In this document: in pieces, positions 2,942-21,391 of the stretch
Position numbering within the stretch: the first letter of the stretch is position 1
Layout of the letters: every line of letters starts with the position of its first letter
Source: a virus
Length of the DNA: 27,619 nt
IMG/VR virus record: IMGVR_UViG_3300028384_000405
Location: 1 to 27,619 of that record
Reading direction: 5' to 3' (one strand)
The notes under the pieces: model-generated
The model's input: the letters and a program-made list of their open reading frames with translations, nothing else
What the model was told of the DNA's origin: nothing
Database searches by the model: none
Program-made: the position numbers and the translations under genes

Positions 2942-3140
2942 GCATCGTCTTTACAGCATAGAAAAATGGGAGCAGGGCAAGAAAACGGAAGAAAAACTCT
3001 TGCTCTGTTCTACTCGTGATGCTATAATATATACATTAAAAGGTTATGAAGTATTTGACTTTCACGAATCACTAGAAATGGAACCGGAATATTATGAGAA
3101 CTCAACCAACTTGGTTTATTCAACAACTAGAAATACATAA
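2934..3140 (+). CDS. Small hypothetical protein
   Basis: A 68-residue protein from ATG 2934, which overlaps the stop of the preceding gene. A TTG at 2925 in the same frame would add three residues but has no better signal. It is mixed in charge, with a Lys/Glu-rich segment (KWEQGKKTEEK) and an acidic Tyr/Glu stretch near the C terminus. It has no membrane segment or motif I recognise. The 3' end overlaps the ligase start by 47 bases. A possible promoter for the ligase lies inside it. Confidence 0.6.
   Translation: MIEHRLYSIEKWEQGKKTEEKLLLCSTRDAIIYTLKGYEVFDFHESLEMEPEYYENSTNLVYSTTRNT
3000..3028 (+). promoter_or_regulatory. Possible sigma70-type promoter before the ligase
   Basis: TTGCTC (3000-3005), a 17-base spacer and a perfect TATAAT (3023-3028). 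The -35 is weaker than at the other promoters in the window. It would give a leader of about 60 bases for the ligase at 3094. Confidence 0.4.
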
Positions 3141-4314
3141 CAGTCGTATTAACAAAGAAGACATTATTCGAGCAGCACACGAAGAAGGTGTGCCAGAGTT
3201 CTTTGATGGCTTGCGTATGGCACTGGATCCGCTTGTAACATTTGGTGTTAAGCAGGTTCCTGTACGTGAAGGACTAAACGAAGGTCAAGGACTTACTTGG
3301 ACTAACTTTGTTAAACTAGCAGAACAGTTGCAAAACCGCGAACTAACAGGACATGCGGCACGTGATGCTATTGAATTGGCAATGGGTGTTGCTACTACTG
3401 AACAATGGAATGATTGGTATCGCCGTGTCCTTATCAAAGACCTGCGCTGTGGCGTAAGTGAAAAGACTGTAAACAAAGTAGTACCAGGTACTGTGCCTAT
3501 GTTTACTTGTGCTCTTGCTCATGACAGTGCCAAGCATGAAAAGAAAATGGTAGGCAAGAAGCAGATTGAAATCAAACTGGACGGTGTGCGTGTTATCACA
3601 ATCATCCGCGATAACAAAGTAGAAATGTTCAGCCGCAACGGAAAACAGTTTTATAACTTCGGACACATCATTGAAGAGATTGAAGCCGTAGTTAAAGAGT
3701 ATCCTGTACCATATCCACTGGTACTAGATGGTGAAGTAATGAGTGCTAACTTTCAAGACCTTATGAAAAGTGTACATCGCAAAGACGGGAAACAAAGCAC
3801 TGACGCAGTACTGCACTTGTTTGATACTATTCCGCTAGGCTGCTTTCAATCAGGTAGTTGGGACAAGCCACAGAGCTTTCGTAGTCTTATTACCAAGCAT
3901 TGGGTAGAGGATCATAAAGACGTCTTAGAGCACGTACAAGCACTGGACTGGGAAGATGTAGACTTGGATACCCAAGAAGGACAAGACCGCTTTGTAGCGT
4001 TAAATAAAGCGGCTGTAGACGGTGGATATGAAGGTGTAATGATTAAGGATGTTGATGCTCCTTATGAATGTAAAAGAACACACGCATGGCTCAAAGCAAA
4101 GCCATTTATTGAAGTAACATTAGAGGTAGTAGATGTCGAAGAAGGAACAGGACGAAACGAAGGACGGCTTGGAGCGTTGGTATGCGCTGGAGAAGATGAT
4201 GGACGAATGGTCCAAGTCAATTGCGGTAGCGGGTTTAGTGACAGCGACCGTGATGATTTTTGGAATGGTCGTAGCGACCTTATTGGGCAACTTGTAGTAC
4301 ACGAAAAAATATAA
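3094..4314 (+). CDS. ATP-dependent DNA ligase, short C terminus
   Basis: A 406-residue ligase that seals nicks through a lysyl-AMP intermediate. Motif I is KLDGVR (K161 is the nucleophile), with LDGEV (211-215, motif III), YEGVMIK (312-318, motif IV) and WLKAK (332-336, motif V). The OB-fold follows, with GRLGALV and a GSGFSDSDRDDFW segment (378-390) typical of family members. The protein ends at LVVHEKI, where relatives normally continue through about 20-30 residues that include motif VI (RxDK), which acts in the adenylation step. That motif is not seen here, and no other frame immediately downstream restores it. The last 60 codons are shared with an overprinted ORF in another frame. T4 ligase has 487 residues. 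Confidence 0.93.
   Translation: MRTQPTWFIQQLEIHNSRINKEDIIRAAHEEGVPEFFDGLRMALDPLVTFGVKQVPVREGLNEGQGLTWTNFVKLAEQLQNRELTGHAARDAIELAMGVATTEQWNDWYRRVLIKDLRCGVSEKTVNKVVPGTVPMFTCALAHDSAKHEKKMVGKKQIEIKLDGVRVITIIRDNKVEMFSRNGKQFYNFGHIIEEIEAVVKEYPVPYPLVLDGEVMSANFQDLMKSVHRKDGKQSTDAVLHLFDTIPLGCFQSGSWDKPQSFRSLITKHWVEDHKDVLEHVQALDWEDVDLDTQEGQDRFVALNKAAVDGGYEGVMIKDVDAPYECKRTHAWLKAKPFIEVTLEVVDVEEGTGRNEGRLGALVCAGEDDGRMVQVNCGSGFSDSDRDDFWNGRSDLIGQLVVHEKI
4122..4126 (+). promoter_or_regulatory. Ribosome binding site for the embedded ORF
   Basis: AGAGG lies six bases before the ATG at 4133, inside the ligase coding sequence. Well-placed Shine-Dalgarno complementarity in the middle of a gene is the main reason to take the overlapping ORF seriously. 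Confidence 0.5.
4133..4297 (+). CDS. Overprinted small membrane protein inside ligase gene
   Basis: A 54-residue ORF lying wholly inside the ligase 3' end, in a different frame. It begins with a charged, soluble stretch (MSKKEQDETKDGLERW), continues through an acidic/basic linker, and ends with one strong membrane helix at about residues 30-52 (IAVAGLVTATVMIFGMVV and on). The AGAGG at 4122-4126 gives a good ribosome binding site. The order charged N terminus, hydrophobic helix, short tail looks like a real small membrane protein. It ends with an amber codon (4295-4297), after which the frame stays open for 20 codons to TAA at 4358-4360. The ligase frame matches its family here, so the ligase is the older frame. 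No homologue is recognised. Confidence 0.55.
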   Translation: MSKKEQDETKDGLERWYALEKMMDEWSKSIAVAGLVTATVMIFGMVVATLLGNL

Positions 4315-9593: not shown

Positions 9594-10723
9594 ATGATTT
9601 AAAGTTTACAACAGCAGGCGACTTCTTGAAACAGCAAGAAATACATCGTATTGGCTTTGCATGTAAGTACATGCATCCAGATCAAACGCAGAAAAAGAAA
9701 CTGCTTGAAGAAATTCAACGTCCATTGAACACTAAGAGTACTACAGTTCAATGGCTCAACAGACAAACACGTGATGTTGCTGAACAACGCTTGTGGGACA
9801 TCATGGTGCATAACATTCAATCGTACTACAACTTGATCGAATACGTAGGGAGTTTACCACATGAATTACGAATGGTTCGACTTGGCAGCGATGTCCTTCC
9901 TGTATACACTCAGCCTGACTGGTGCTATTATTGGAAACTACCTGCTGTGGTCGCATATTGCGAAAAGCATTTCGCAAGGGTCGGCGAGCTTGCAAGGCAG
10001 TTGGATGTACGGTTGTCTATGCATCCTTGGCAGTTTACTGTGCTTGCAAGTGATAATGACGACATAGTCGAGAGGAGCATAGAAGAATTTGAATATCACA
10101 CCGATGTCGTGCGCTGGATGGGATACGGACAGACATTTCAAGACTTTAAATGCAATGTCCACATATCGGGTAGAAAAGGTCCACAAGGCATCAAAGACGC
10201 CCTCAAGAGACTCTCGCCAGAAGCACGAAACACAATCACAATCGAAAACGACGAAAACAAGTGGGGACTCGAACACAGCCTTGAGCTCGTCGACCACTGC
10301 GCACTCGTTCTTGACATACACCACTGGTGGTGTCGTGAAGGAACATACATTTCACCAACCGACGATAGATTTGCTCGCGTAATAGATAGTTGGCGTGGTG
10401 TACGTCCTGTTATACATTACAGTTATAGTCGTGACGAACATTTGCCTGCAGACTTTGCACACAACACCATGCCTGATATGAAAGCATTACTCGAAGCAGG
10501 ACATAAGAAAGCAAAACTGCGAGCACACAGTGACTACTATCCTAACAGTGCTGTAAATGACTATGCACTATCATTCTTGCCATATGCGGACATTATGGCG
10601 GAGAGCAAGGCAAAAAATCTAGCAAGTATCGCACTATATAAATACTATATGGAGAACAACAATGAGCTATTTGAATCAAATGTACGGCAGAAAGTCGCCG
10701 GACCAGACCCAATTATCATCTGA
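9590..10723 (+). CDS. uvsE: UV damage endonuclease, UvdE/UvsE type
   Basis: A 377-residue TIM-barrel endonuclease that nicks 5' of UV photoproducts. Family landmarks appear in order: IGFACKYMH (21-29), RMVRLGSD (94-101), RLSMHPWQF (141-149, H145), NVHISGRKG (189-197), ITIENDE (216-222, E219), LVLDIHHWW (239-247), VIHYSYSRD (274-282), AHSDYYP (312-318) and DIMAESKAKNLA (334-345). These supply the His, Asp and Glu residues of the metal cluster. It is longer than bacterial UvsE (about 300 residues). The ATG overlaps the upstream TGA. The middle (9860-10380) is GC-richer with more C-ending codons than its flanks, and a second frame stays open there. The gene ends overlapping the next start by 62 bases. 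Confidence 0.93.
   Translation: MNDLKFTTAGDFLKQQEIHRIGFACKYMHPDQTQKKKLLEEIQRPLNTKSTTVQWLNRQTRDVAEQRLWDIMVHNIQSYYNLIEYVGSLPHELRMVRLGSDVLPVYTQPDWCYYWKLPAVVAYCEKHFARVGELARQLDVRLSMHPWQFTVLASDNDDIVERSIEEFEYHTDVVRWMGYGQTFQDFKCNVHISGRKGPQGIKDALKRLSPEARNTITIENDENKWGLEHSLELVDHCALVLDIHHWWCREGTYISPTDDRFARVIDSWRGVRPVIHYSYSRDEHLPADFAHNTMPDMKALLEAGHKKAKLRAHSDYYPNSAVNDYALSFLPYADIMAESKAKNLASIALYKYYMENNNELFESNVRQKVAGPDPIII
9847..9852 (+). promoter_or_regulatory. Ribosome binding site for the ORF embedded in uvsE
   Basis: AGGGAG, eight bases before the ATG at 9861, inside uvsE. It has good complementarity and spacing for an internal start. Confidence 0.4.
9861..10067 (+). CDS. Possible embedded membrane protein inside uvsE
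   Basis: A 68-residue frame, +1 relative to uvsE, with a good internal ribosome binding site (AGGGAG at 9847-9852). The product has two hydrophobic segments, about residues 8-31 (LAAMSFLYTLSLTGAIIG and on) and 48-66 (WMYGCLCILGSLLCL), joined by a serine-rich turn with a few polar residues. This is the architecture of small phage membrane proteins. Doubt comes from its position in the GC-richer part of uvsE, where several frames stay open by composition. The uvsE frame carries conserved residues throughout, so it is the older gene. No homologue is recognised. Confidence 0.35.
   Translation: MNYEWFDLAAMSFLYTLSLTGAIIGNYLLWSHIAKSISQGSASLQGSWMYGCLCILGSLLCLQVIMTT
10637..10644 (+). promoter_or_regulatory. 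T4-like late promoter box (perfect)
   Basis: TATAAATA, an exact match to the T4 late consensus. It lies inside the 3' end of uvsE, 17 bases before the ATG at 10662. Confidence 0.75.
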
Positions 10724-12007: not shown

Positions 12008-15000
12008 ATGGCAAAACAAGATATCGATATTGGTGTTGAAGGTAATGACGGCACTGGTGATAGCATACGTGAATCGTTTCGTAAAGTAAATGAAAACTTT
12101 CAAGAACTGTATGCTGTATTTGGTGCTGGAGGTCAAATTAGTTTCACTAACTTAGGTGACACACCAAACAGTTTAAATCCAAGAAAACTTCTTCTTGTAA
12201 ACGATAGCGGAACAGCACTAGAATATCAAGAACTTGCAAGTGACAGTGGAAAAGGCACAGGTGATCCTGATAGTATTACAATTAGTTATGACATTGCTGG
12301 TAAGATTATTTTATCTACATCGTTTAGAGCATTATCACAAGACTTGTCACCGACTTTAGGTGCTCCGTTAGACGGTGACGGCAGAGGTATTGCACGAGTA
12401 AGTATTGATCAAAATGCTGTTAATGACTTTAATGCAACGCATCCAGGCGATGATATTACAATTGACGATCTAGTAATTACAAAAGGATATGCAGACAATC
12501 GTTATATTGCTGGTGTTCTTCCAATACGTGTTGACGACGAACCAGTTGATGCTTCGGAATATATACTAGAAATTGAGGACTACACAGACGGTAACATTAC
12601 TGTTACTGACCACGGCTATGATAACACAGTTAACGGCACTCCATTTGTATTTAAAGCAGAAGATACTGATCCTTCTAATCTAGCATCGGGAACAACATAC
12701 TATCTAAGATATGCTTCGCCAAGCCAATTAAGTGTTCACAGAACAAAGCAAGGTGCTATTGACGATACAGACCAAGCATTTGTAACATTTACAATCGATG
12801 CTGCTGATAGTCATACAATGACTGATGCAGGATATGATGAAAACCTAGAAGGATTCTTCCTTTCAAACGAAGCAATGCCACGTAAGAGTATTGTAAGACG
12901 TCAAGGCGATGCAATGACAGGTCCTCTTGTACTTCATGATAGTCCAGGAGAACTTGCGGGATTAACAAATAGTGCTGAAGATTTACAGGCAGCAACTAAG
13001 TTTTATGTAGACAATACTAGCTACTCAAGTCCACAAAACTTATTTGTAAGCACTACAGGTGATGATACTATGCGTGGTGTTCCAAGTGGCAAAGAAGGAA
13101 CATCTTGGAGCTATGCCTACAGAAGTATTAATGCTGCTGCTCGTCGTGCTGAAGAAATGATCAAAGCGTCGGATGCTGAGCCAGGTCCGTATATGCAAAC
13201 TATTACCAGAGATAACCAAAGTGCAAATGCCGAAGTTGTTAGTGCTGGTATTAACAATCCTTTATTCAATCAAGCAAGAAATCTTATTGAAGAAAATAGA
13301 GAATATATTATTAGAGAGATTACAGCATATCTAAATTTTGAATATCCAGACTTTGAGTATAACATTAAAACTTGTGAAAGAGATTTAGGTTTAATTTTAG
13401 ATGCGATTGCATTTGATATTAACAAATCACCTAGTTTAACTGATGCTACAGCAAACAGTTTAACACGTAGAGCAGGCGAAAGATATTATAACAGTGCAAG
13501 CGGAAGAATTGCAATCGGGCGCCAGTTAACAGAAACTGTTGACGCTATTAATATTGCTAGAGACATTGTTGAACAAATATTGCAAAACAGAAGATACAAT
13601 CAAGTTGGAATTAATAGTGTTACACAAGCTAATATTGCAACAGTCACTACAACAATTAATCACGGATTAGAAGATAAAAACATTGTATTAGTTGAAAATG
13701 TGTCAGGCATGACACAAGTTAACGATCAGTTTTATTATGTTAAAGTTACAGGCGATAGAACTTTTGAATTATTCTTAGATGACGAATTAGAACAACCTTT
13801 GAACAGTGCAGGGTTTACCGCTTATGCAGGCCAAGGTAATATAGGCCTAGTATACCAAACAGATGAAAAACAATTCCGTGATATCGGTGATGATGCTGAT
13901 CCAGTAGCAAGACAAGCAGTTATTGACAAATTTAATCTAGTTGTAAACATTATGTCAAACGGCATTGATTCTGGTGCTACAACATCATTTGGCAAGACAT
14001 ATCGTGTTATTGTAAACAACGGCGGACTAGTTGCTACTGATCAAGGTAACATTGACAATAGAGATATAAGTCCAGGTAAAATACTTGTTGGTAAAATATC
14101 AGGTGCACAAGGACGAATTGTAACATATAATCAAAACGATCCAAATTTTAATGGCAACGATAACATCGAAGTTCATCTAGAAAAAGCGATTGATTTTATC
14201 GACGGCGAAGATTTAGAATACGGAAACTTTGTAAAAACTGAACAAGTAACTATCTTTATTGAATCAGGTCAATACGAAGAAGACTATCCTATTAAAGTTG
14301 CTGCTAATGTTTCAATCAAAGGTGACGAATTTAGACGAGTAATTATACGTCCTAAAAATCGTGTATCGCAATCTCCGTGGGCAGGCACATACACTTATCG
14401 TGATAGATATTTTGACGGCTTAGAAATTACCAGAGGCGGCGCAAGATTTTACAATCAAACAGGCGAGTGGCAAGGTTACTTTGGCTACCATTACTTGTCA
14501 GATCCAGAAAAAGTTATTAATACTGGTGTACCAGTTGCAAATGCTGGCGAGTACAACACAGCCGCAAATATTATTACTGAAAACAGAGAATTTATTCAAA
14601 ATGAAATTATTGAATATATCAATCAAAACACTGCTGATCTATTATATGATAAGACAGAGTTCGGTAATGATCTAATTGAAATTTTAGATGGTATTGCTTA
14701 TGACATTGTTCTTGACACTACATTTAATGCAAGACGACTCGGATTAAAATTCCAAAGAGATAAAAGCATCTATAAAGATCAACAACTAAAAGATTTATGG
14801 GTTGTTGGATTAACTGAAGCAAAACGTTTAGTAGGCGGTCTTCCTGCTGTATCAAGTTCGTCAGATGCTACTACTAGAGCGAATGCAGCATTTGACGAAA
14901 TTATTGATATTATCGAAAACGGTGTATTAGATACAGATGATGCTACTGTTGCACCAATTTATAATACAGTAAACACTACCGATCCAAATGAAGAACGTGC

Positions 15001-18000
15001 AAAAGATAGACTACTTGCTAACATAGAATTTATTGCTGCTGAAGCATTGGCTTACTTACAATCTAACTATCCAAGAAAATACTTCAATGAAGACATTCGT
15101 TTGCGTGATGCACGTAATATGTCTTACGCACTGGCTTATGATATCATGTACGGCGGAAATAGTGCAACTGTAGATTTCATTAAAGATATGTTTATCGAAA
15201 ATGAGTTGAGATTAGAAATTGTTTCTAGAATTCCAACTCTAGAAATGATTACACATATTAAAACAGTTATTAGTTCTGTAGTACAAAACGTAGGCGTACT
15301 TGCTACTACAGGTAATACAGAGATACAAGATTTAAGTGGTACACCAGCAACAGCAACAGAAGCAACTACTATTGGTTTATATGTTGATATAATTTATAAT
15401 CAAATTAATAACCAGAACTTGTTAAACATTCCTAGTACAACTTATCCAAGTTTAGTAGGTTTGAATAGTGCGTTAGTTGATGCTAAAACAGGTATCGACG
15501 GCGGAGCAACATCTATCCGTGATGCAGTTTATATTGTAGTAGATGCAAGTCCTGAAGCAGTATTTACTTACAATCAAACAAAATGTAAAAGAGACGTTGG
15601 ACTAATTGCAGATGCTATTGCTAAAGATTTAGAACGTGGCGGTGATGAAAACTCATTAGAGGTACAAGGTGAATACTTCGAGAGTTATATTCAAAAATAT
15701 AACAATAATGGGTTTGGTGGGCAAGAGAATGTCACAAGAAATGCAATTGAATACACCGCTATCATCATGGCAAGACTTTTCCAAGGTAACTATAATCCAA
15801 ATGATATTTGGCAAAACACAGGCGATAGTTCTTACATTGCTCCTGATTTTAAATTCGGAACCGCTGAGCTTGGTACAAATGTTATTGTAAACAATCTTGT
15901 AGACAGAATTGTATTTGCTTTTGATAGAAAATATAATCCACCATTGCGCAATGACGAAATGGATGTGTTCTTGATGAATGATGCAACTATTTTGCGTAAC
16001 ATGACAGTACAAGGACACGGCGGATTCCTTTGTGTGCTTGACCCAGCAGGACAAATTCTAACTAAATCGCCATATGTACAAACAGGTTCATCATTTAGTA
16101 AGAGTATTAACAGCAAGATCTTTGCTGGTGGTATGTTTGTAGATGCATATGTAGGTAACTTACCGGCATCTGTTCCAACAACTATTGATGTAGGTAATGG
16201 TTCTGAAAGCGGTAAGATTAACAATTTAACACTTTGGGTACGTTCAGAAGAAGGTCAGGGCTTGTTTATTCGTCCACCGGAACTACCGTGTCCGTTCTAT
16301 TTAGAAGGTAGACGTTTCCAAGTTAACGCTATTTCAGATTATGACCAAGGTAATGGTTGGTGTAAAATTTACTTAGATCCAGGTTCAAATGACGGTAACG
16401 GATTTGACGAAACATTATTTGAAGAAAGACCAGGCGACATTGCTAGAGATCTTTATCTACAAACTGCTGGTAACAGATCAATGCTCGGTAACGACTTTAC
16501 ACAGATTAACGATTTAGGTTATGCTCTTGTTACTACAAACGGTGCGTTCTCTGAGATGGTTAGTATGTTTACATACTACTGTCAGGCTGCATACTATGCT
16601 GCAAATGGTTCAGAGATTAGATCACTAAACGGTTCTAACGGTTATGGTAACTTTGGTCTTGTTGCTGAAGGTGCTGACCCTAACGAAATTCCGGATCAGG
16701 TTACTTACGAAGGAGATATGACATTCCCAGGACGTTTAGTCCGTTGGTTTGAAGATGGCGAATTTGTAAACGTAGCAGAGTCTAGCACAATTTATGTTAC
16801 AGACTTTAAACGCTTACCTGAACCAAACTCCAAGGTTGTTACAGGTATACATACAGTTACAGGTATAGGTGCAGCTGATCCTAGCAGAGCTAGTGGACAG
16901 TATCCTGCTGTTACTGCTAACGGCGACACCAAAGGAGCAACGTTTAATGTCACTGTTGACGGTTCAGGTGCTGCAACAATATCTATTGCTGCTTGTGGTG
17001 AAGGTTATGCTGACGGCGATTCGTTAACTATAAGTGATGCAGATTTAGGCGGTGGAGGAGCTGCTGACCTAGTATTTACTGTAGATAAAGTTTATGGCTC
17101 AGACGGAACTCTTGTTTTACCAACAGCTAAATATGATAACAAAATTTATGGCTTACAAATTACAGGTACTCCTGCTGGAACTAATGGTGACTTCTTTAGT
17201 AATATCCAAGACGATATTCCAAATGGCGAGTTTGCTGAATATAGACATAGCGAAACACACAGATTTGATAATATTAGAAACCAAGATCGCTTAGTTACTC
17301 GTCCTTCTACTGCAATTAACTTTGACGAGAGTGACGATATCACTTATCGTTCAATCGCATTTAGTAGTTTTGACAGTCAAGGAAATCCCTTAGATTCAAA
17401 TAGTATTACTGTTACTTTTGAAGTAGAATATGATAATGTCGAGTTCCAAGTTGATACTGGAAGTGCATTTTCGTCAAATGGACAAGCAATTGGAGATTTA
17501 GAAATTGCTATTAATGACGAAGCAGAAGGTTTTGTTATTGATGATTCAGAGAAGCGAAGACTTGTTACAGATATCAACGGCAATTTGCCGCCGGCAACAT
17601 TGGAAAATCCGAATGCTAGTGATCTAATTAGACGTAACATCGAATTTGTACAAGAAGAAGTCATTGCTTGGGTCAACGCAACATATCCATCATTGCAGTA
17701 TATTCAGTCTAAGTGTTATAGAGATATTGGGTATATTCTAAGTGCTATTGATTTTGATATACAGCACAGCAGTAATAACAAAACTGTTGATGCAGCATTG
17801 TACTATTGGGATGGTGCAGTGAGTCAAGTTGTAGGTCAGACTATAGAAACTATTGCAGCAATTAACAAAGCAAAAGAAATTGTTGCAGATTATATTCTTA
17901 CACAAACAGCCTGGACTGCTATCAATACTAACGGTGCTACACAAGATTTAACAGGCACAGCAGCAGAACCAGGTATTAGTGTTGAAGTTGAAGGCCTAAT

Positions 18001-21000
18001 GGATATCATAACTGACGTTATTGCAAATGGTGTAGGCGTTGCTCCTGATAAAACAGGTTACTCAGGCGGTATGGTGTTTACATGGGCAGGTAGAACTCAC
18101 CAAATTATTAGATACAATAACGGTGTTAATGCCGGAGAAGCATCTATTAATATTTACGGCGCACCAAGAGCCGATCTAACTGACGGTGCTACACAAGGTA
18201 TTAACCAAGCATTTACTGAGAATAGAGTTCTTAGAGCAGGTCTTCCTGATAAACAAACAGCAGAGATTACAATTAGTATTTCGCTATGTAGAGCAACAGG
18301 ACACGACTTCACACAAATTGGTACAGGATCGTTTAACGATTCAAACTATCCAAATGTTATTTTAGGTGATCCGGAAAATACACTTGCACCATTCTATACA
18401 GATAGTCCAAATGCTACAAGCGCACAAGTTTGGGAAAGACGTAAAGGGCGTGTGTTCTGGATGTCAACTGACCAATTTGGATTCTTTAGAGTTGGTAAAT
18501 TCTTCGAAGTTGACCAAGGTCAGGGTAGTATTAAATTCTCAGGTGAGATTGGTATTACAGGTGCAAACGCACTAGGATTTAAAAAGGGTGTTACAATTGA
18601 CGAATTCTCAATTGATGATACTATGGCTGACGAATCAGACACTTCGGTACCAGTTGAAAAAGCTATTGTATCTTACATCAATAAACGCTTAGGCAGAGAT
18701 AAAAATGACAATGGTGTTTCAGGGCAAATTGGTCCAGGCTTCCTTCCACTAAGTGGTACACCTGAAATGACAGGTGATTTACAGATGGGTGCAAATAAGA
18801 TTACTAATCTCCAAAACCCAGAAGGCGGTAGCGATGCTTCTACTAAGTCATATGTTGATACTAAGATTACAGAGTTTGATAGTTTTGAATCTGTAAGAAA
18901 CACTGAAACAAACAGAGTAGAAAGTGGAGACCTAGTTGTATTTACGGGCTCAAGAAAAGTTTATACCACAGTTCCAGAGGATTCAAGCGGTAGTGATACA
19001 TTTGAAGTTGGCGATAACATTGAAGATGTATCAGGTAATAAGACTGCAACTATTGTTGATGTATACACAACTACAGATTTAATTATTGGTGAAAACGAAC
19101 CAAGTAATATAATTGCTGTTATTACATACGATCTCACAAATAGTAGTGCAGAGTTTAACCAAGCAGAAGATATACAAGGCACAGGTGCTAAGAGTACTGT
19201 AAGTGCAAATATTATTAGAGGACCATTTGACGAGATTGGTCATGCTAGGGAAGCAACTGGTAGTATAATTAATCTTTCGCTAACACGTACTCCTGGAGTT
19301 AGACAAGACTCACTAACAGATCCTGTTGCAGAATTTAACTTACAAATTGAAAATGATTCAATTATCGATGCTGATATTAATTCAGGAGCAAGTATTGCAC
19401 AAAGTAAGTTATTATTAGAAAGAGCTAAACCTCTAGGAAATAGTAGTGGATTGTACGGAACAGGCGACGATACCGGACAAGGTTCAAGAGGTTCGGCAGC
19501 ATTTGATTCAGCTCAATTTGCACATGAAGTTCAGCTTACACTAAGCAATCCTATAACTGCTAATCAAGGTGATATTATATTCCAAAACACTAACAAAGGT
19601 ACAGTTGTTGATACTATTGTAAATAACACACTAGTTGTTATTAGAACTACTGATAACTTTGTTGCTGACTCTACTGTTATTGGTGTTGCTGAAATTATAG
19701 GTGGTGTCGAACGTATTCCACAGCCGCAAGCAGGTGTAACAGTATCAGCTGTTAATGCTAGTGGTTATATTGGTATTAAAGACAGAGGTATTAGTTTAGA
19801 TAAACTAGACGAAATAGCTACTGATCATTTACTAGGAAGATCATCAGATGGTACAGGTATAGTTGAATCTATTCCGTTTGAATCAGTAGTAGATCAAGGA
19901 TTTGGTTTACTTGATGTTGATTTCGAAAATTCTGAAATCGATGAGCTGTCAGGAACAGTACTAACATTTGCTTCACCAGTTACAATAAGCGACGGCGAAA
20001 CACTATCACAAAGTGCTACAGGTGCTAGTGCTACTGTACAAGGCAAAGTTGAATCTGAAACTTCAATCCGAATTGTTAATGTTACCGGAACGTTTAATGC
20101 TACAGCAGTATCAGGTAACTTGAGCGGACCAATTGGTGCTCCGGTTGCAGTTGCGAACGGTGTAAACTTTATTGGACAGGCTCTAGTTAAGCAAGCCGAA
20201 GGAGTATATGGTACAACGTCAATAAGCATTGGATCTGCTAACGATAGTATTGCAAGAAGAACTGATAATGGTAGTTTACAAGCTACAAGTTACATCATCG
20301 GCGGCACATCAACAAACGTAATTTTAGCAGAATCTGGTGGTACACTAACAATGACAACACCAGCAGGTGGTACAATTCTTGAAGCAAACGGCGGCAATGC
20401 TTCTAATGCTCCAAGAGTTGATATGCCAGGAAGTGTTAACATTGGTGATGCTGGTGCAACAGATGAAGGTAATGCACAAGGTAACGTATCTGGTCTAACC
20501 GGAACAGGTTATGCAGCAAGTCCTTGGAATTATACTAACTTCATTGAAGCATTAGACACTAAAGAATCTAATAATACTACAGGCTTTGCATTAGGTGCAC
20601 CAAGTGCCTACACAAATGCAGCAGCAGGTACAATTATTGGTGTAAGTAATAATACTGAAGCATTAGTAATTGCAAATACTGGTGTTGAATCTAAAGTAAG
20701 TTTTAGTGTTGCATCTAATAAATTTACAGTAAACGCTACAAACGGAAACACTGTTGTTGCAGGTAATTTATCAGCAGGCGGAACACTTGGTGTTACAGGT
20801 GCTACTACTCTAAGTAGTACACTAGCAGTAACAGGAGAAACATCACTCAATGGTAATGTTAACTTAGGTGATAATGTTGCTGATACAATTAGTGTAACAG
20901 GTTCAGTTGATACTGATATTATTCCAACAGGAACTCGTAATTTAGGTAGTGGATCGGCAGCTTGGGATACAGTATACGGTACAACGTTCAGTGGTACAGC

Positions 21001-21391
21001 TACAACTGCAAAATATGCTGACCTAGCTGAAAATTATCTAGCTGATATGCCATATGATCCAGGAACAGTAGTTGTTTTAGGAGGCGAACACGAAGTTACA
21101 CTTACAAGTGCAAAAGGAGATCAACGAGTAGCAGGTGTTGTATCAACAGATCCAGCACACTTGATGAACTCACACTTAGAAGGTGATAATGTTGTTGCAG
21201 TAGCACTAACTGGCCGCGTTCCGTGTAAGGTACTAGGTAGAGTAGCCAAAGGCGATATACTAGTTACAAGTGCAATCCCCGGATATGCCATTGTTGACAA
21301 TAAGCCTGCATACGGCACTATTATTGGTAAAGCAGTAGGAGCTAAGGACGATGACGGAAAAGGTGTCGTTGAAGTATTGGTTGGTAAGTAA
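12008..21391 (+). CDS. Giant tail fibre/structural protein, 3127 residues
   Basis: A very large virion protein. Residues 14-31 carry the N-terminal docking motif NDGTGDxxRExFxKxNxNF shared with the protein at 22984. There are phage-fibre signatures AMTGPLVL (near 300) and LSGTPEMTGDLQMGANKI (near 2250). Around 345-370 is a WSYAYRSINAAARRAEEM block, and near 745-800 IESGQYEEDYPIKVAANVSI begins a pectin-lyase-like beta-helix. Five helical repeat units lie at residues 425-471, 854-900, 1001-1046, 1188-1208 (half) and 1872-1918. The last 130 residues (ADLAENYLAD, GGEHEV, GVVSTDPAHLMNS, VALTGRVPCKV, KGDILVTS) form a C-terminal domain common in marine T4-like fibre proteins, probably a trimerisation or maturation tip. 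A late box and GGAG precede it. Confidence 0.9.
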   Translation: MAKQDIDIGVEGNDGTGDSIRESFRKVNENFQELYAVFGAGGQISFTNLGDTPNSLNPRKLLLVNDSGTALEYQELASDSGKGTGDPDSITISYDIAGKIILSTSFRALSQDLSPTLGAPLDGDGRGIARVSIDQNAVNDFNATHPGDDITIDDLVITKGYADNRYIAGVLPIRVDDEPVDASEYILEIEDYTDGNITVTDHGYDNTVNGTPFVFKAEDTDPSNLASGTTYYLRYASPSQLSVHRTKQGAIDDTDQAFVTFTIDAADSHTMTDAGYDENLEGFFLSNEAMPRKSIVRRQGDAMTGPLVLHDSPGELAGLTNSAEDLQAATKFYVDNTSYSSPQNLFVSTTGDDTMRGVPSGKEGTSWSYAYRSINAAARRAEEMIKASDAEPGPYMQTITRDNQSANAEVVSAGINNPLFNQARNLIEENREYIIREITAYLNFEYPDFEYNIKTCERDLGLILDAIAFDINKSPSLTDATANSLTRRAGERYYNSASGRIAIGRQLTETVDAINIARDIVEQILQNRRYNQVGINSVTQANIATVTTTINHGLEDKNIVLVENVSGMTQVNDQFYYVKVTGDRTFELFLDDELEQPLNSAGFTAYAGQGNIGLVYQTDEKQFRDIGDDADPVARQAVIDKFNLVVNIMSNGIDSGATTSFGKTYRVIVNNGGLVATDQGNIDNRDISPGKILVGKISGAQGRIVTYNQNDPNFNGNDNIEVHLEKAIDFIDGEDLEYGNFVKTEQVTIFIESGQYEEDYPIKVAANVSIKGDEFRRVIIRPKNRVSQSPWAGTYTYRDRYFDGLEITRGGARFYNQTGEWQGYFGYHYLSDPEKVINTGVPVANAGEYNTAANIITENREFIQNEIIEYINQNTADLLYDKTEFGNDLIEILDGIAYDIVLDTTFNARRLGLKFQRDKSIYKDQQLKDLWVVGLTEAKRLVGGLPAVSSSSDATTRANAAFDEIIDIIENGVLDTDDATVAPIYNTVNTTDPNEERAKDRLLANIEFIAAEALAYLQSNYPRKYFNEDIRLRDARNMSYALAYDIMYGGNSATVDFIKDMFIENELRLEIVSRIPTLEMITHIKTVISSVVQNVGVLATTGNTEIQDLSGTPATATEATTIGLYVDIIYNQINNQNLLNIPSTTYPSLVGLNSALVDAKTGIDGGATSIRDAVYIVVDASPEAVFTYNQTKCKRDVGLIADAIAKDLERGGDENSLEVQGEYFESYIQKYNNNGFGGQENVTRNAIEYTAIIMARLFQGNYNPNDIWQNTGDSSYIAPDFKFGTAELGTNVIVNNLVDRIVFAFDRKYNPPLRNDEMDVFLMNDATILRNMTVQGHGGFLCVLDPAGQILTKSPYVQTGSSFSKSINSKIFAGGMFVDAYVGNLPASVPTTIDVGNGSESGKINNLTLWVRSEEGQGLFIRPPELPCPFYLEGRRFQVNAISDYDQGNGWCKIYLDPGSNDGNGFDETLFEERPGDIARDLYLQTAGNRSMLGNDFTQINDLGYALVTTNGAFSEMVSMFTYYCQAAYYAANGSEIRSLNGSNGYGNFGLVAEGADPNEIPDQVTYEGDMTFPGRLVRWFEDGEFVNVAESSTIYVTDFKRLPEPNSKVVTGIHTVTGIGAADPSRASGQYPAVTANGDTKGATFNVTVDGSGAATISIAACGEGYADGDSLTISDADLGGGGAADLVFTVDKVYGSDGTLVLPTAKYDNKIYGLQITGTPAGTNGDFFSNIQDDIPNGEFAEYRHSETHRFDNIRNQDRLVTRPSTAINFDESDDITYRSIAFSSFDSQGNPLDSNSITVTFEVEYDNVEFQVDTGSAFSSNGQAIGDLEIAINDEAEGFVIDDSEKRRLVTDINGNLPPATLENPNASDLIRRNIEFVQEEVIAWVNATYPSLQYIQSKCYRDIGYILSAIDFDIQHSSNNKTVDAALYYWDGAVSQVVGQTIETIAAINKAKEIVADYILTQTAWTAINTNGATQDLTGTAAEPGISVEVEGLMDIITDVIANGVGVAPDKTGYSGGMVFTWAGRTHQIIRYNNGVNAGEASINIYGAPRADLTDGATQGINQAFTENRVLRAGLPDKQTAEITISISLCRATGHDFTQIGTGSFNDSNYPNVILGDPENTLAPFYTDSPNATSAQVWERRKGRVFWMSTDQFGFFRVGKFFEVDQGQGSIKFSGEIGITGANALGFKKGVTIDEFSIDDTMADESDTSVPVEKAIVSYINKRLGRDKNDNGVSGQIGPGFLPLSGTPEMTGDLQMGANKITNLQNPEGGSDASTKSYVDTKITEFDSFESVRNTETNRVESGDLVVFTGSRKVYTTVPEDSSGSDTFEVGDNIEDVSGNKTATIVDVYTTTDLIIGENEPSNIIAVITYDLTNSSAEFNQAEDIQGTGAKSTVSANIIRGPFDEIGHAREATGSIINLSLTRTPGVRQDSLTDPVAEFNLQIENDSIIDADINSGASIAQSKLLLERAKPLGNSSGLYGTGDDTGQGSRGSAAFDSAQFAHEVQLTLSNPITANQGDIIFQNTNKGTVVDTIVNNTLVVIRTTDNFVADSTVIGVAEIIGGVERIPQPQAGVTVSAVNASGYIGIKDRGISLDKLDEIATDHLLGRSSDGTGIVESIPFESVVDQGFGLLDVDFENSEIDELSGTVLTFASPVTISDGETLSQSATGASATVQGKVESETSIRIVNVTGTFNATAVSGNLSGPIGAPVAVANGVNFIGQALVKQAEGVYGTTSISIGSANDSIARRTDNGSLQATSYIIGGTSTNVILAESGGTLTMTTPAGGTILEANGGNASNAPRVDMPGSVNIGDAGATDEGNAQGNVSGLTGTGYAASPWNYTNFIEALDTKESNNTTGFALGAPSAYTNAAAGTIIGVSNNTEALVIANTGVESKVSFSVASNKFTVNATNGNTVVAGNLSAGGTLGVTGATTLSSTLAVTGETSLNGNVNLGDNVADTISVTGSVDTDIIPTGTRNLGSGSAAWDTVYGTTFSGTATTAKYADLAENYLADMPYDPGTVVVLGGEHEVTLTSAKGDQRVAGVVSTDPAHLMNSHLEGDNVVAVALTGRVPCKVLGRVAKGDILVTSAIPGYAIVDNKPAYGTIIGKAVGAKDDDGKGVVEVLVGK
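13280..13420 (+). repeat. Helical repeat unit 1 in giant fibre protein
   Basis: Residues 425-471: NREYI, then a Tyr-Pro step, a central Cys, RDLGLILDAIAFDI. This is the clearest copy of the five and keeps the Cys-x-RD core. Confidence 0.7.
14567..14707 (+). repeat. Helical repeat unit 2 in giant fibre protein
   Basis: Residues 854-900: NREFI, then IEYIN, and ILDGIAYDI at the end. It has the same length as unit 1, but the Cys is lost. Confidence 0.65.
15008..15145 (+). repeat. Helical repeat unit 3 in giant fibre protein
   Basis: Residues 1001-1046: NIEFI, AYLQSNYP, then RDARNMSYALAYDI. It follows unit 2 after about 100 residues. Confidence 0.6.
15569..15631 (+). repeat. Helical repeat, second half only, in giant fibre protein
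   Basis: Residues 1188-1208: YNQTKCKRDVGLIADAIAKD, the second half of the unit. The first half is missing or has diverged. Confidence 0.6.
17621..17761 (+). repeat. Helical repeat unit 5 in giant fibre protein
   Basis: Residues 1872-1918: RNIEFVQEEV, WVNATYPSLQY, then CYRDIGYILSAIDFDI. It keeps the Cys-x-RD core and lies 660 residues beyond the other copies. Confidence 0.7.

Follow-up and report, generated by a model that had tools for sequence, protein, structure and literature searches.

The window examined here, that is, the whole stretch of DNA that was analysed, comprises the entire 27,619 bases of an IMG/VR record and is a fragment of a tailed phage. It encodes tail-fibre-like proteins, a radical SAM protein, a glycosyltransferase and a QueD-like protein. 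A single ORF of 3127 amino acids at positions 12008 to 21391 gave several tail-fibre profile matches. At one end of the record, a tRNA at positions 1 to 81 is cut by the record end and adjoins a tRNA-Arg(gcg) at positions 130 to 206. The T4-type late promoter TATAAATA was found on the + strand of the window only at 10637. A T4-type capsid protein, Gp23, is encoded in the record of a ligase-bearing relative (L080), and it is about 70% identical to the Gp23 of jumbo phages, such as Pseudomonas phage PA5oct and Vibrio phage 2.275.

The features of interest all lie within an ATP-dependent DNA ligase gene of the Pmar-Lig type (Table 1). Its product matched the Pfam profile DNA_ligase_A_M (5.5e-19) and PHROG 114 (6.4e-81), and the full-length ligase of a related phage (L002) matched the Prochlorococcus ligase 6RAU with an E value of 2e-196. 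The gene encodes the adenylation domain and the OB-fold that characterize Pmar-Lig-type ligases. Motif VI (RFPRF..FRGF), a further characteristic of this type, was not present in the window. According to the comparison with its relatives, this motif (RFPRFKTFRGF) sits in the last 34 residues or so of the ligase family, and 29 residues are missing from the window. In the relatives examined, the ligase C terminus reads ...LVEVRADAITQNQDGTYSLRFPRFKTFRGFE-x-x-EK-x, and motif VI was found in those listed relatives whose sequence extends to the C terminus; in the window ligase, LV is fused straight to VHEKI. The first-pass annotation had described the conserved residues of the OB-fold as retained, which is correct only in part, motif VI being deleted. 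Residues of this motif help step 1 of ligase catalysis (PMC6698739). The window ligase is possibly broken, or the deletion may be an assembly error. A private mutation and an assembly error cannot be told apart because the junction was found in no other IMG/VR contig. A 2-base (AG) microhomology was observed at the deletion (positions 4294 to 4314). The overprinted gene described below, stop codon included, is intact despite the deletion.

Table 1. Coordinates of the ligase gene and of the features nested in it
Feature	Position	Strand	Remarks
ATP-dependent DNA ligase, Pmar-Lig type (host gene)	3094..4314	+	406 aa; relatives about 435 aa
Putative overprinted gene, 54 codons, ligase +1 frame	4133..4297	+	Polar N-terminal half, residues 1-28; membrane helix, residues 30-52
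Shine-Dalgarno AGAGG of the overprinted gene	4122..4126	+	Formed by ligase codon E344; GGAGG in most relatives
ATG start, long form	4133..4135	+	ATG in 79/108 relatives
Possible second start	4189..4201	+	GGAG at 4189-4192, in-frame ATG ATG at 4196-4201; helix-only form of 32-33 aa
Stop codon TAG of the overprinted gene	4295..4297	+	V401 = GTA (makes TAG) in 73/107 relatives
Ligase deletion junction, in-frame 87 nt (29 codons), motif VI lost	4296..4299	+	From comparison with 80 relatives

The second ORF lies wholly within the ligase ORF with a +1 shift, as expected of a nested, same-strand overprinted gene. Its predicted product is MSKKEQDETKDGLERWYALEKMMDEWSKSIAVAGLVTATVMIFGMVVATLLGNL. The spacing between AGAGG and the ATG is 6 nt, and the best 19-residue Kyte-Doolittle mean of the helix at residues 30 to 52 is 2.39. 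AlphaFold2 modeled the product as one helix from residue 3 to residue 53, with a pLDDT of 88. A 54-codon ORF with these elements had been pointed out in the first-pass annotation, and the ORF, its AGAGG, its helix and its coordinates were all confirmed.

The open frame in the window sequence alone would not be compelling. For a ligase with this amino acid sequence and codon usage, the chance of such an open frame was about 1.7%, and the chance of an open frame combined with an ATG and a hydrophobic helix was 0.4%. Relatives were then judged against a null in which each one's synonymous codons were sampled anew according to the codon usage of that relative. The results showed that the overlap was open for at least 50 codons in 102 of the 109 relatives, compared with 3.8 expected. 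A second-frame start and a stop-free frame in close relatives, the absence of which would have spoken against the gene, were found. The idea that the ligase sequence itself forces the frame open was rejected, as only about 1 to 4% of sequences were open under the synonymous null. Across about 108 related phage ligases, 20 stops in the +1 frame were found in the overlap versus 318 expected. Per sequence, this amounted to 0.19 stops versus 2.74 expected, and the rest of the ligase had 30.0 versus 29.5. No stop deficit was found over the overlap in the +2 frame. In 13 lineages near saturation at synonymous sites, there were 6 stops in the +1 frame versus 39.2 expected (p = 5e-11). Single valine codons were also inspected. 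V375, which precedes Asn, was GTA or GTG in 0 of 105 rows, and V377 was GTG in 10 rows and GTA in none; V363, which precedes Cys so that a stop is impossible, was GTA in 42 of 101. Just outside the overlap, V341, V345 and V401 were freely GTA and hence gave +1 stops, so that the boundaries of the effect are sharp. The relatives had been fetched partly by similarity to the overlap region; the frame was also open in most of a set chosen by the ligase alone.

The start signal was analyzed in the same alignment. Ligase codon E344 was GAG in 92% of the relatives, compared with 21% for Glu elsewhere, and together with its neighbors it spelled GGAGG or GAGG six bases upstream of the ATG. For D347, where GAT makes the ATG, the ratio of GAT to GAC was 76:6, versus 52:48 elsewhere. 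A TTG was located one codon downstream in 21 rows without the ATG, and 16 of these stood behind GGAGG. The frame was open in all 83 rows with a Shine-Dalgarno sequence and in only 11 of the 41 rows without one. The Shine-Dalgarno sequence and the open frame coevolve: the two went together in 7 to 8 independent pairs and were opposed in none (sign test, p = 0.008). About 11 of 112 rows had no usable start or Shine-Dalgarno sequence for either the long form or the short form described below. As for other glutamates of the ligase, conserved codon 35 (window positions 3196 to 3198) was GAG in 84% of the relatives, so a high GAG level can occur away from E344; codons 57 and 195 were GAG in about half.

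At the protein level, the two halves of the predicted product deviated from the synonymous shuffles in opposite directions. Residues 2 to 14 exceeded the synonymous-codon expectation in polarity (mean hydropathy, -1.05, against -0.08 in the shuffles), and residues 29 to 53 exceeded it in hydrophobicity (+2.15 versus +1.21). Openness of the frame alone does not explain such an opposite codon bias. Polar residues at positions 30 to 52 numbered 0.95 versus 3.23 expected. G378 and G380, where GGA would place Glu or Asp in the helix, were each GGA in 1 of 107 rows, compared with 27% of Gly codons elsewhere; GGA was favored in the polar half, whereas the helix half excluded it. The pairwise identity of the products (0.40 to 0.45) was only modestly above that of the shuffles (0.33 to 0.36), and therefore it is mostly the residue class that is kept. 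Conservation of the helix in relatives had been proposed as a check, and a charge-free helix is indeed retained there beyond what the ligase forces. Judged by stops, start signal and opposite hydropathy bias together, the second frame is kept by selection beyond the constraint of the host frame.

The first-pass annotation had also proposed comparing synonymous variation of the ligase over the ORF with that in the rest of the gene, and it had held that equally free variation there would refute the gene. We codon-aligned the 80 IMG/VR sequences closest to the ligase (76 to 86% identity) and found no lower synonymous divergence in the overlap: with 60 representatives, the observed/expected ratio was 1.05, versus 0.97 elsewhere. 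Taken literally, the refutation was met. The plain synonymous-divergence test is insensitive here. It is blind because T/C exchanges are frequent and the bases that would make stops or charges are excluded at ligase third positions. These are the second positions of the new frame, and therefore the identity of the base, not the rate of change, is informative. We did not accept as evidence the lower synonymous divergence of the closest subclade (0.68) because amino acid divergence drops too and the sample was partly picked by similarity of the region; the low divergence likely reflects a recombined or recent block. Pairs matched by amino acid divergence were confounded for the same reasons.

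We next considered 79 Prochlorococcus ligases (L242 to L320), about 67% identical, as a control. None of the 79 had the Shine-Dalgarno sequence or the ATG; Lys is found at 344 and Ser at 347. Their second frame had 2.2 stops per sequence and placed charges within the helix part, polar residues were not depleted, and GGA was used at G378 in 70 of 79 and at G380 in 72 of 79. A partial stop deficit was found over residues 24 to 52 (0.22 versus 1.39), which may be a relic or a local codon bias. Stops also interrupt the overlap frame of three distant phage ligases (L323, L406 and L408). The distribution of the second frame is thus restricted, as expected for the younger frame, which is kept neither in Prochlorococcus nor in these distant phages. 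In the tree built from the nonoverlapping part of the ligase, the trait was scattered, with 13 changes. No single origin is claimed because of this scatter and because recombination is likely. In each genome record searched there was one copy, always within the ligase. The Prochlorococcus ligases, relatives of Pmar-Lig, formed one clade nested among phage ligases (e.g., L075, L357 and L369) in the ligase tree, and this placement suggests that the cellular ligase was derived from a phage. A phage-type ligase with 77% identity and an open overprinted frame was also observed on a 335-kb contig assigned to a Neomarinimicrobiota MAG (L241; PBPT01000016.1), which may be a phage contig binned with the bacterium.

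Stops in the N-terminal half were present in 18 phage rows, namely, the EDDGY group (13 rows), L115, L118, L119, L120 and L343. All of them except L343 (17 of 18) had AAGGAG or AAAGGAG immediately upstream of ATGs that are in frame at residues 22/23. Over residues 24 to 52, the EDDGY group had 0 stops versus 1.46 expected and 3.0 polar residues versus 7.34 expected. We read this as a second phage group that would keep only a helix-only short form of about 31 to 33 residues with its own start. The charge-free helix did not separate open from broken rows in independent pairs, since the helix persists in the broken rows as the short form. The window, which has both start signals, could by inference make both products.

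Searches for known relatives of the product returned little. No homologue of the overprinted protein was found outside ligase genes; three weak profile matches there (L010:2126 +, L194:2126 + and L193:3261 +), with E values of about 0.06, were probably due to chance. Comparison of the ORF with PHROG, Pfam and PDB gave only scattered matches at the noise level and no family, and a Pfam MMPL match was below its cutoff. Sequence homology to phiX174 E or to a known lysis family was not met in PHROGs, PDB or Pfam. No Pfam holin match was obtained among 61 ORF members, including with the class III holin profile (PF11031). A PF11031 search of 8 records also gave no match, and the positive controls were likewise silent. 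No psbA was found in the large contigs. Annotated features beside the ligases of Vibrio phages proved to be upstream overlaps, not nested genes. Neither Pfam nor PHROGs nor 50,697 phage records contained the overprinted family, and the literature searched, which was open access only, yielded no description of a phage ligase with a nested gene.

Several explanations other than a gene were weighed. The ligase amino acids and T-rich third positions could by chance yield an open, hydrophobic +1 frame without any product. Such a chance frame would fit the synonymous variation of the ligase, which is as free in the overlap as elsewhere, and T-rich third positions do make +1 frames hydrophobic, as in phiX174 D/E (PMC8227390). 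We nevertheless consider it very improbable and already strongly contradicted: about 2.7 stops per sequence are expected under the null and 0.19 were observed, the missing bases are precisely the ones that would create stops or place charges in the helix, the polar half shows the opposite bias, and the Shine-Dalgarno sequence and start are kept in the phages, with no such feature in Prochlorococcus.

Under programmed +1 frameshifting, the ligase would gain a membrane tail and no separate small protein would be made, which is possible in principle given a frame that is open and ends inside the ligase. However, a +1 stop lies at most 11 codons upstream of the start in 79 of the 83 rows with a Shine-Dalgarno sequence, leaving few codons for a shift, and what is kept is a Shine-Dalgarno sequence and a start codon. 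We find this explanation hardly credible. We rate no higher the proposal that the codon bias reflects a nucleotide-level element, such as an RNA structure or regulation of a downstream gene. The overlap does lie at the 3' end of the ligase gene, where such elements are common. Still, avoidance of GTA is confined to codons whose following base would complete a stop (V375, V377 and V348), GTA is used at V363, and the preference for GGA reverses between the polar and helix halves; an RNA element would not track the +1 codon grid in this way.

We conclude, with a probability of roughly 0.88, that positions 4133 to 4297 are a genuine overprinted gene for a 54-residue single-pass membrane protein; its translation, membrane insertion and function are inferred. 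Comparison of the relatives demonstrates that, in most of the phage ligase family, selection has kept the predicted ribosome-binding site and start, the open frame and a helix without charges. The overprinted membrane protein first suggested from the window is supported by these retained elements and by their absence from the cellular orthologues. To the extent that sequence evidence can tell, the hidden gene in the ligases of these uncultured marine phages very probably encodes a real, unannotated phage membrane protein.

In the proposed mechanism, ribosomes would initiate within the ligase message at the internal Shine-Dalgarno sequence and ATG, and translation in the +1 frame would give the 54-residue single-pass protein. 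Its polar N-terminal half would probably be cytoplasmic and be followed by one C-terminal helix, with about 2 residues beyond it. The product is inferred to be inserted in the host inner membrane and might act via general helix properties, like lysis proteins, holins or exclusion factors, because the identity of its residues is only modestly above the level dictated by the ligase. Judged from size and hydrophobicity only, the product is most likely a small effector that crosses the inner membrane once. Among the specific roles, a lysis or membrane-perturbing protein comes first, well short of an even chance; superinfection exclusion or another kind of membrane takeover is less probable, and regulation of another membrane protein and any other role are equally placed below it. 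A broader scenario is speculative and, taken as a whole, unlikely. It holds that a new microprotein family with two architectures, 54 residues and helix-only of about 31 to 33 residues, each with a separate ribosome-binding site, is an active part of a lysis/exclusion system in the replication ligase of a large marine phage group; that some phages, this one included, may make both forms as an effector-regulator pair; and that Prochlorococcus obtained its ligase from a phage, the hidden gene having decayed in this copy.

By analogy, the closest precedent for the origin of such a gene is phiX174 E in D, likewise a gene for a small membrane protein lying wholly inside another phage gene, whose hydrophobicity arises as T-rich third positions of the older frame become second positions (PMC8227390). 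The overprinted gene differs from E in that no sequence homology is established, lysis is not shown, and it has its helix at the C-terminal end and a second, internal-start architecture. phiX174 is a 5.4-kb single-stranded DNA phage, whereas here the host gene is a DNA ligase of tailed phages with records of up to 275 kb. Lambda Rz1 in Rz and MS2 L are small, envelope-directed phage proteins from a second frame; the proteins, frames and host genes are different from those described here. Single-helix (class III) holins, such as T4 T (Pfam PF11031), are small, phage-encoded proteins with one membrane helix, and some holin genes have two starts. Unlike these, the present ORF lies in a DNA metabolism gene and not in a recognized lysis cassette, and no sequence match links the two. 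Pmar-Lig (6RAU/6RAS/6RAR/6RCE) is the cellular relative of the host ligase, and this orthologue without the hidden gene provides a natural control.

Documentation of overprinted genes is best for very small genomes. In the present case, overprinting is kept in an essential-type enzyme gene in phage contigs of up to 275 kb, which space saving explains poorly. The reduced-synonymous-divergence test can miss real overprinting, and checking which synonymous bases are excluded can expose it. Since this family had escaped the databases and phage records searched, other phage enzymes may hide similar genes.
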